From positions 1 to 33,264 of the forward strand of contig JADGNU010000007.1 in NCBI GenBank assembly GCA_017883305.1: a stretch of 33,264 nucleotides of DNA, in the 5' to 3' direction. Of the stretch, positions 3,615-16,622 are shown piece by piece. The translations under genes and the position numbers were made by a program. The stretch comes from Candidatus Aminicenantota bacterium. Lineage in GTDB: Bacteria; Acidobacteriota; Aminicenantia; Aminicenantales; Saccharicenantaceae. How positions within the stretch are numbered: position 1 is the stretch's first letter; each line of letters begins with the position of its first letter. Below the pieces are notes generated by a model. The model was not told the DNA's origin. It did no database searches and saw nothing but the letters and a program-made list of their open reading frames with translations.

Positions 3615-4009
3615 TTCCGGCTGCCTCATGGGGGCCTCGGGGCGGCTCGGAGGGGCAGTCTCTCCCTCCGGCGGGAAGCGGAGTCTTCGGAGCGACCTGC
3701 AGAATTTTGGCTGAGTGCTCGAAGCCGCACTTCTGATAGATATCTAGAACAAGAGTCTTTATGCAGATATCTCCCAGAAGCTCTCCTCCGAGCCGCTCCG
3801 TCGCGCTTCTGACGGTCACTCCGCAGACTCCGCTCCCTGCCGCTCCTCCGGGCATCGCCCCTGCGCCACTGTCCTTATACGTTCACTCCGATGACACCCC
3901 CTCAGCCTCTTGCTCCGCGGCCTCTTTCGGGATTAGCCAAGAGCGCTTTTGAGAGGGCTCGATAGATTTTGTGACCGTGTGTCGCGAGATCTCGCGGGAG
4001 GGAAAAGGC
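3615..4009. other. 395-bp non-coding stretch between queF and the M23 gene
   Basis: I see no convincing gene here on either strand: open frames are short or run out of frame into queF, with no Shine-Dalgarno sequence or recognisable domain. It holds the long hairpin described at 3673-3837 and a perfect 14-bp palindrome CGCGAGATCTCGCG at 3983-3996, 13 bp beyond the stop of the M23 gene. The palindrome has no loop and no T-run, so it is not a standard terminator. Confidence 0.6.
3673..3837. repeat. Long imperfect inverted repeat (about 165 nt hairpin)
   Basis: Two arms of about 73 nt can fold on each other around a 19-nt loop (3746-3764). The outer stem 3678-3697 pairs with 3814-3833 at 18 of 20 positions, and pairing continues outward through 3673-3677 with one bulged A. 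Further in, CAGAA (3700-3704) pairs with TTCTG (3807-3811), GAGTG (3713-3717) with CGCTC (3794-3798, one G-T), CTCG (3718-3721) with CGAG (3789-3792), CTTCTG (3730-3735) with CAGAAG (3775-3780), and AGATATCT (3738-3745) with AGATATCT (3765-3772). It could be a structured RNA, a MITE/REP-like element or a DNA-level hairpin; strand and function are unknown. Confidence 0.65.
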
Positions 4010-15164: not shown

Positions 15165-15584
15165 ATGACAAAGAAAGCCGCTCCCAAGAAGAAGACCGCG
15201 AAGAAGAAAGCCGTGCCCGTCCCCGAGGACCTGGAGATCAACCGCCGCCGGGAATGGCGGTTCGACTTCCCGCTCGACACGTTCATCGAGGGCAGCCTCG
15301 CCGACGGCGCCAAGTTCAAGGAAGAAACCCGCCTCGAGAACATCTCCTCGGGGGGGGCCTATTTCACCCTGGATTCCGGGGTGGTCGTCGGCTCCAAGCT
15401 CAACCTCTTCATCGAGCTCCCGGAAAAGCTCGCCGACGGCAAGAGGATGCGGCTGCGGATCGGCGGCATCACCGTCCGTTTGGAAAAGCCCGACAAGCAA
15501 GCGAAACACCAGGGCGTCGCCGTACGGTTCAGCGATGACTTGTTCAAAATCGTCCCGGTCAAGAAGACCGGCAAAAAGAAATAG
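15165..15584 (+). CDS. PilZ domain protein (canonical c-di-GMP-binding motifs)
   Basis: A 139-residue protein with a Lys/Ala-rich basic N-terminal tail (about 16 residues) and a PilZ domain. Both c-di-GMP contact motifs are intact: RREWR (RxxxR) at about residues 27-32 and NISSGG ([D/N]xSxxG), followed by AYFTLDSGVVVGSKLNLFIELPEK and a closing HQGVAVRFSDDLF. It should bind c-di-GMP, the second messenger of surface and motility control; the partner is unknown. The ATG has AAGGA 4 nt upstream and follows the LuxR-type gene after 20 nt, so they form an operon. Its last 50 nt overlap the start of coaE. The basic C-terminal KKTGKKK is unusual and may be a contact tail. Confidence 0.85.
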   Translation: MTKKAAPKKKTAKKKAVPVPEDLEINRRREWRFDFPLDTFIEGSLADGAKFKEETRLENISSGGAYFTLDSGVVVGSKLNLFIELPEKLADGKRMRLRIGGITVRLEKPDKQAKHQGVAVRFSDDLFKIVPVKKTGKKK

Positions 15585-16212
15585 CGTCCTCCGGGTCGCT
15601 CTGACCGGGGGGATCGCCTGCGGGAAATCCGTCGTCGCTAAGATCCTCGCTGAAAATGGTTGCGTCGTTTATTCGGCCGACGAGGCCGCCCATGATCTGA
15701 TGCGTCCCGGGCGGGCCGCCTGGAAGCTGGTGGCTGCCCGGTTCGGTCCTTCCGTCCTTCGCCCTGACCGGACGATCGACCGGCCCGCGCTGGCCGCTAT
15801 CGTCTTCTCCGACCTGGCCGCCCGCCGCTTCCTCGACCAGCTCGTCCACCCTCTTGTCCTGGCCGAGCAGGCCGAGGCCGTCCGACGGCTCGAGCGAGAG
15901 GGCCGGGCCCGCATCTTCGTCGTTGAGGCGGCCCTGACGATCGAAGCGGGTTATACCGGGCATTTTGACAGGGTGGTCGTCGTCCACTGCGGCAAAACGG
16001 AGCAGGTCCGGCGCTTGCGCGGCCGCGACGGCATCAGTCGGACGGCCGCCCTACGGAAGATCGGGTCCCAGATGCCGCTCCGGGAAAAGCTCCATCACGC
16101 CGATTATGCGGTCAACACTTCGGGAACACTGGCAGCGACGGTCGATCAAACGGAGCGGGTCTACGCCCAGCTGGTGCGCGACGCCGAATTAAAAAGAAGG
16201 GGTCAAACCTAA
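15535..16212 (+). CDS. coaE: Dephospho-CoA kinase
   Basis: Catalyses the last step of coenzyme A synthesis, ATP-dependent phosphorylation of dephospho-CoA. The P-loop GGIACGKS is at residues 25-32, followed by VVYSADEAAHDLMRPG (DxxxH substrate region), and later AALTIEAGYTGHFDRVVVVHC and QVRRLRGRDGISRTAALRKIGSQMP (lid Arg/Gln motif). The only ordinary start codon is the ATG at 15535, overlapping the PilZ gene by 50 nt and giving a 15-residue basic head before the core; no GTG or TTG lies nearer. The last six codons (KRRGQT) and the stop lie inside the left arm of the inverted repeat at 16194, so the native C-terminus was probably altered by that element. Confidence 0.92.
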   Translation: MTCSKSSRSRRPAKRNSVLRVALTGGIACGKSVVAKILAENGCVVYSADEAAHDLMRPGRAAWKLVAARFGPSVLRPDRTIDRPALAAIVFSDLAARRFLDQLVHPLVLAEQAEAVRRLEREGRARIFVVEAALTIEAGYTGHFDRVVVVHCGKTEQVRRLRGRDGISRTAALRKIGSQMPLREKLHHADYAVNTSGTLAATVDQTERVYAQLVRDAELKRRGQT

Positions 16213-16298
16213 ACTTTTAAACTTTTCGTCCGGGGCGGGGCGGACCGACAAGAAGGATGGGGGGAAAAAGTTTAAAAGTTTAGGTTTGACCCCTTCTT
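16194..16298. repeat. 33-bp perfect inverted repeat between convergent coaE and HU genes
   Basis: The arm at 16194-16226 (beginning AAGAAGGGGTCAAACC) is the exact reverse complement of 16266-16298 over 33 bp, with a 39-nt G-rich centre. The left arm encodes the end of CoaE including its stop; the right arm ends 4 nt from the HU stop at 16303. As RNA it would form a very strong hairpin in either direction and probably ends both transcripts. The GGGGTCAAACC core resembles, from memory, REP-type repeats mobilised by TnpA_REP (RAYT) transposases; no such gene is in this window. A small inner stem GTCCG/CGGAC (16228-16232, 16241-16245) is also present. Confidence 0.85.
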
Positions 16299-16302
16299 GG
16301 GG

Positions 16303-16590
16303 CTAAGCGGATTTGGTTTTGGATAGAAGGGTCTTGAGCTCCTGGCCGGGCCGGAACTTGATCCGCTGGCCCTTTTCGATGCGGATCTGCTTCTGACGGC
16401 GGATGTCGCGCCCGAAGCCGGTCTTCTTGGCCACGACTTTGAAGCTCCCAAAGCCGCGGATCTCGACTTTTTCCCTCTTCGCGAGAGCGGTTTTGAGCGA
16501 CTCCAGAACGGCCTCGACGATCGACAGGGCCTTGGCCCTGTTGAATTCGGTCTTCTTCTCGATCGCCAAGGCGATATCGTTCTTGATCAT
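16303..16590 (-). CDS. HU/IHF-family DNA-binding protein
   Basis: A 95-residue nucleoid protein that bends DNA as a dimer. The family layout is clear: MIKNDIALAIEKKTEFNRAKALSIVEAVLESLKTALAKREKVEIRGFGSFKV, then a beta-arm with the RPG tip (FRPGQELKTLL). The usual GRNPxTGE stretch reads GRDIRRQKQIRIEKGQ, which is more basic and lacks the Asn-Pro, so it is a divergent HU or IHF-like paralogue. I start at the ATG at 16590, with AAGGAG 8 nt upstream; a GTG at 16599 overlaps that site. It has its own AT-rich promoter and converges on coaE across the inverted repeat. Confidence 0.93.
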   Translation of the reverse strand: MIKNDIALAIEKKTEFNRAKALSIVEAVLESLKTALAKREKVEIRGFGSFKVVAKKTGFGRDIRRQKQIRIEKGQRIKFRPGQELKTLLSKTKSA

Positions 16591-16622
16591 CGAAGTCACT
16601 CCTTACGCGAAAACGAATACTA

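Follow-up and report, generated by a model that had tools for sequence, protein, structure and literature searches.

The inverted repeat that separates coaE from the convergent HU gene in this genome of Candidatus Aminicenantota is very probably a small non-autonomous hairpin, which we infer to depend for its mobility on a TIRYT-type transposase, a single-copy Y1 (HUH) enzyme acting in trans. Dozens of such small mobile hairpins, this one among them, appear to have been spread through the genome by an IS200-like transposase. Systems of this kind are already known; the notable part is that the arms at the same sites differ between species. In the window, by which we mean the whole analysed stretch of 33,264 nucleotides, the sequence, the open reading frames and Pfam matches (Table 1) bear out the description given by the first-pass annotation, namely two perfect 33-bp arms around 39 bp between the convergent genes. 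The arms are exact reverse complements of each other, and positions 16299–16302 are the four nucleotides that, as also claimed, separate the right arm from the HU stop codon. Only ~2e-12 such arm pairs are expected by chance in the whole window given its own base composition, and a chance origin was therefore rejected. Because the coaE open reading frame overlaps the upstream PilZ gene, the true start of coaE may be further in.

Table 1. Features of the coaE–HU junction, in positions of the window
Feature	Position	Strand	Evidence
coaE ORF (dephospho-CoA kinase); stop TAA at 16210-16212, inside the left arm	15535..16212	+	Pfam PF01121, E 7.3e-43; ORF list
Left arm, terminal repeat of A type; holds the last five coaE sense codons and the stop	16194..16226	+	Exact inverted repeat; 20-base core with 22 exact copies in the genome
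Loop, 39 bp, not common to other A-type elements	16227..16265	.	Comparison of A-type loops
Right arm, exact reverse complement of the left arm	16266..16298	-	Exact inverted repeat
Gene for HU-type DNA-binding protein, convergent with coaE; stop 4 nt from the right arm	16303..16599	-	Pfam PF00216, E 2.1e-20; ORF list

The sense codons within the left arm encode R R G Q T, and the preceding Lys codon contributes only its last base. The first-pass annotation had placed the last six CoaE codons and the stop in this arm; the stop is indeed there, but six is reached only by counting it. Its further proposal that the original C-terminus had been replaced went too far. The Pfam CoaE domain is complete (residues 21–199 of 225), and, judged from the sequence, the element supplies only the last five or so CoaE residues and the stop. 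The case shows how the stop codon and final residues of a gene such as coaE can be determined by a small mobile hairpin. Among the 11 genomes of the genus in which the coaE end was compared, a full inverted pair is present in three, with different arms (the window's genome, G000, as well as G007 and G012). The stop lies inside the left arm in G000 and G007, and CoaE of G012 reads through as far as the right arm. A single GGGGTCA is left at this position in G001, G004 and G005, and TGATCCCTTCTT in G006, all of which we read as scars. The coaE end of G003 is ambiguous, and no trace of an element was found there in G002, G009 and G010. CoaE proteins without the full element end (in DAELKI or DLESK) about where the window's CoaE departs from homology, and therefore about five residues have been changed. 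The window's arrangement of arm and stop is not shared by the relatives. The coaE end of G005 (L043) also carries a different insertion of ~100 bp, absent from its near relative G004.

The window's assembly comprises 2.93 Mb in 358 contigs and is about 90% complete. The 20-base core of the arm, GGGGTCAAACCTAAACTTTT, occurs in it at 30 places with at most three mismatches, 22 of them exact, compared with 0 for a reversed-pattern control. The genome-wide count proposed in the first-pass annotation thus returned a multi-copy arm, and a single-copy feature was rejected. The shorter core GGGGTCAAACC has 74 occurrences in G000 (control 0), mostly in inverted pairs, and is present in all 13 genomes of the genus, ranging from two copies in G010 to 110 in G005, with 55 in G012. 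The repeats of the individual types are lineage-specific: the A-type 20-mer is found 22 times in G000, twice in G006 and in none of the 11 other genomes of the genus; the G004-type repeat has 14 exact copies in G004, two in G011 and none in 11 others; and the G001-type repeat occurs 11 times in G001, twice in G010 and in none of 11 others. The arm types of G000 share AAGANGGGGTCAAACC and differ inside (TAAACTTTTAAAC; TACCTTTCGTTAC; TACGGCAGGGAGCGG; TACGCGATGCCAG), and several G000 elements pair two arm types, one on each side. Chimeric elements with a different arm type per side were noted at L107/L161, L144, L146, L154 and L155, and nested elements, with one hairpin within the loop or arm of another, at L102, L127 and L130. 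At L150 (G000:C310) and L145 (G000:C235) the two flanks of the element are mutually reverse complementary, which looks like an assembly fold-back. The outer bases of 86 element ends, drawn from two genomes, are A (73%), A (85%), G (94%), A (94%), N and GGGGTC, the next base out being free; on the opposite strand they read NTCTT, which contains CT. A scan of named genomes returned 27 stretches with the same ends, mostly from MAGs of Candidatus Aminicenantes/Acidobacteria and three of them from Syntrophobacteraceae, Clostridiaceae and Haemophilus. Literature searches for insertion sequences and inverted repeats of Aminicenantes, or for the core letters, gave nothing relevant.

The search for a RAYT gene, also suggested by the first-pass annotation, identified in the same genome a Y1/RAYT-like transposase gene flanked by the same arms. 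G000 holds four Y1_Tnp matches, one of which (C329) sits between two arms of the same type; no arm-like flanking repeats were found at the other three (C305, C185, C308). The C329 element has 29-bp perfect arms on both sides, measures about 1.1 kb end to end and lies between kamA and geneX, a label used here for the gene that neighbours the transposase locus opposite kamA. Its terminal repeats are long, inverted and unrelated to GTAG REPs. The transposase matches PF01797 over the cut-off (E 6.4e-12), and its translation displays the motifs HYH and YIHGNP (for the meaning of these motifs, see PMC6006769). The C-terminal part has a weak match to the DnaA HTH (PF08299, E 0.011, 16.2 bits, against a Pfam cut-off of 31.5). 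The reading frame is broken near the N-terminus (L019, about 2450–2490); the G000 gene looks frameshifted and, because of this break, may be dead or misassembled.

Homologues of this transposase with E 1e-65 or better are encoded by six genomes of the genus or family, namely G001, G004, G007, G009 (on two contigs), G010 and G014, and they adjoin kamA and geneX, or whichever of the two their stretch contains. The flanking repeats mostly differ: AAGAAGGGGTCAAACCTAAAC in G000, GGGGTCAAACCTTTAA in G007, AAGAAGGGGTCAAATCTCCAC and a GGGGTCAAACCTACTTTTTT hairpin on the two contigs of G009, AAGAAGGTACCAGGTCTACGC or a close variant in G004, AAGAAGGGACCTGGTCTTCGC in G001 and AAGTAAGGGTCAAACCTACTC in G014; in G010 there is just a short repeat, 15 bp long and of a different kind. 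Where tested, the dispersed hairpins match the genome's own transposase repeats. When kamA has no transposase behind it, a solo hairpin is found in its place in G005, G011, G002 and G008, and only a seeming remnant in G006 and G003; the G012 contig ends inside kamA. At E 1e-15, no close homologue of the transposase was detected in G005 (96% complete, and the genome with most core copies), G003, G006, G008 or G011; G002 has distant matches only, and G012 one distant match and no close homologue at that threshold. This counts against the proposed role of the transposase; the genomes concerned have either lost it once their hairpins had spread or use a different enzyme to serve them. The two G009 contigs, C196 and C227 (L067, L092), hold two distinct transposase cassettes behind kamA, which share their flanks but not their terminal repeats, representing either strain variants or cassette exchange. 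A second Y1 gene of G004 (L300 12893–14294; G004:C17, about 213 kb) has GGGGACATGTAC inverted repeats nearby, and GGGGACATGTACC hairpins are present at several G004 junctions; these are probably a second repeat–transposase pair.

RAYT-like transposases with long terminal inverted repeats, some with GGGGWSAS, are known as TIRYTs (TIRtrons/TIRYT: Di Nocera et al. 2013, PMC3733652; the term is also used in PMC6006769). According to these sources, TIRYT repeats form families, and GGGGWSAS occurs in some TIRYTs, not all. TIRYTs probably correspond to TnpA-Y1 subclass 2.1 with a C-terminal HTH (Bac_DnaA_C, HTH_23 or HTH_28), a link described as needing confirmation (PMC6006769). The system described here resembles TIRtrons in having a RAYT-like Y1 transposase between long terminal inverted repeats that bear no relation to GTAG REPs, in its dispersed repeat dimers and in the GGGG-type motif, and Acidobacteria are among the reported TIRtron hosts. 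It differs in that the motif here is GGGGTCAA, which matches GGGGWSAS at 7 of 8 positions, with GGTACCAG or GGGACCTG in its place in other lineages of the genus; moreover, the HTH match is below the cut-off, the arms vary and the loops are unrelated. A doublet of GTAG-footed REPs, i.e., a REPIN of the canonical sort mobilised by a canonical RAYT, would account for much of the same picture, since inverted hairpin doublets, spacers less conserved than their ends (PMC3116915), a fixed, syntenic, single-copy transposase locus with different repeat classes in related strains (PMC3686654) and stop codons supplied to genes are all reported for REPs and RAYTs (see also PMC8266576). However, neither strand of the A arm has GTAG (or GTGG) as a palindrome foot, one arm alone forms no hairpin and lacks the layout of a palindrome footed by a tetranucleotide, and the C-terminal region of the transposase points weakly to subclass 2.1/TIRYT. 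We find the canonical REPIN scarcely credible. A canonical GTAG REP was rejected for the A arm, as it has no tetranucleotide foot; GGTAGG does occur within certain other arm types, but no palindrome follows it. The first-pass annotation, which likened the arm core to REP-like elements moved by RAYTs, was right in kind, in view of the Y1/RAYT-like transposase gene between the same arms, but the A arm is no canonical REP: it lacks GTAG and on its own does not form a hairpin with a GTAG foot. The TIRYT/TIRtron kind is preferred, and the system seems to fit the TIRYT definition better than that of a canonical REP. TIRYTs are little-studied cousins of RAYTs, and the genus provides a natural series, with one transposase locus, many species, mostly different terminal repeats and matching dispersed hairpins, so that one can test directly how the transposase recognises an arm and what becomes of old sites.

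In the mechanism that we propose, each hairpin consists of two inverted terminal repeats (AAGANGGGGTCAAACC plus an inner arm specific to the lineage) that enclose a dispensable loop, and would be mobilised in trans by the transposase encoded between kamA and geneX in the same genome and flanked by the same terminal repeats. The hairpins are linked to this enzyme because multi-copy arms flank the Y1_Tnp gene and the arms change between genomes together with the transposase-flanking repeats. By analogy with TnpA-REP enzymes, which cut at CT (PMC8266576), the transposase would act on the single-stranded hairpin, with a predicted cut at the CT of the outer NTCTT, beside the GGGGTC core. The excised piece would be pasted elsewhere as single-stranded DNA and would survive mostly between genes. 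At coaE the insertion would have reached the 3' end of the gene, CCTAA inside the arm becoming the stop, and the AA at the outer end of the repeat appears to complete a TAA after a host T in many further copies.

Arms and loops show strikingly different degrees of conservation. Across twelve small A-type elements the arms are 97.0% identical over 27 bases, and the loops are on average 44.5% identical, compared with 42.5% when shuffled (66 pairs); a loop is common to only two of the 66 pairs, in one of them inverted. Either the arms alone may have been homogenised, or the loops may change fast while the transposase holds the arms. These elements could also be viewed as classical MITEs, i.e., internal deletion derivatives of the C329 transposase element moved as whole units, as they are short, non-coding and share their arms with the terminal repeats of that element. 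The transposase partner of a MITE is usually a DDE enzyme. Here, by contrast, it is a Y1/HUH enzyme, the interior is not common to the copies, and arms of two different types are combined in several elements, making the MITE origin highly improbable. A recent whole-unit spread is unlikely because arms that are 97% identical would then come with a common loop.

The conservation of sites was analysed with 43 elements (30 from G000 and 13 from G005), defined by GGGGTCAAA..TTTGACCCC within 260 bp at the listed loci; neither degenerate elements nor solo arms belong to the set, nor do the transposase element itself and C194, whose right end has one mismatch, and the G005 elements represent only the first of its listed core places. 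Fourteen of the 30 G000 elements and six of the 13 from G005 had no identifiable position in the 1.98 Mb of G004 sequence used and were left out. The two site lists overlap at one site (L154:3565 and L129:3927). A hairpin of a terminal-repeat family is present in G004 at 4/16 placed G000 sites and 2/7 placed G005 sites, versus 13/1533 junctions in a G004 control from which junctions longer than 600 bp or containing withheld stretches were excluded (P 9e-6 and 0.0015, respectively). Against the highest rate of any hairpin in a junction class (5.9%), the corresponding values are 0.0018 and 0.06. Orthologous sites carrying other-armed elements more often than expected is only suggestive, because the control is unmatched for everything that makes junctions permissive. 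The remaining placed sites (12/16 and 5/7) have no such hairpin in G004, some holding remnants and some nothing, and a clean, undisputed empty site that would fix the exact borders of the element was not found. At two other junctions, one compared among G005, G000 and G001 and the second among G005, G004 and G000, the flanks are alike as far as the arms, which differ. Arm uniformity and the shared-site excess suggest replacement of arms in place or re-insertion at old sites. Tentatively, and with considerable doubt, we consider that the sites are old docking stations at which the arms move, either by refilling of a scar (AAGANGGGGTC or CCCCNTCTT) or by overwriting of the arms in place by the dominant type of the lineage. 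Docking stations would explain the uniform arms with unrelated loops, the chimeric arm pairs and the species-specific arms at coaE–HU, kamA–geneX and the two other junctions; if true, the arms would evolve in concert within a genome, with loops and sites staying old. The literature consulted on such elements contains no description that we could find of arm turnover at common dispersed sites.

Gene ends around the elements were called with a simple codon-usage gene finder. The 3' end of a gene is faced by 41 element sides; exactly 3 nt separate the end of the stop from GGGG in 12 of these, whereas the stop is 14 nt inside the element in three, as in coaE. TAA before GGGG is best read as a host T followed by the AA of the element, because the base before AAGAN is free. 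A published parallel is the supply of TAG stops by GTAG REPs (PMC3733652). The 30 G000 elements are distributed over nine convergent, ten tandem and eight divergent junctions and three contig edges. An immobile, host-evolved bidirectional terminator or mRNA 3'-end hairpin between convergent genes would agree with the location of the coaE–HU element and with its strong folding as a single RNA strand (−59.6 kcal/mol, z −8.8 versus shuffles), and convergent junctions account for 9/27 classified G000 elements compared with 221/1533 G004 junctions. Nevertheless, 18/27 are at tandem or divergent junctions, the transposase gene is flanked by the same arms, and the arms are wholly different from one species to the next. 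A search of the coaE–HU element for a U-tract terminator found none, so that a classical terminator of this type was rejected, and the host-evolved hairpin in general is very unlikely. A known RNA family was likewise rejected, as Rfam gave none at the gathering threshold. Elsewhere in the window (3665–3846), a longer imperfect inverted repeat without GGGGTCAAACC ends is similar to the C-type interior (GGAGCGGA..TCCGCTCC) of other elements in the same genome.
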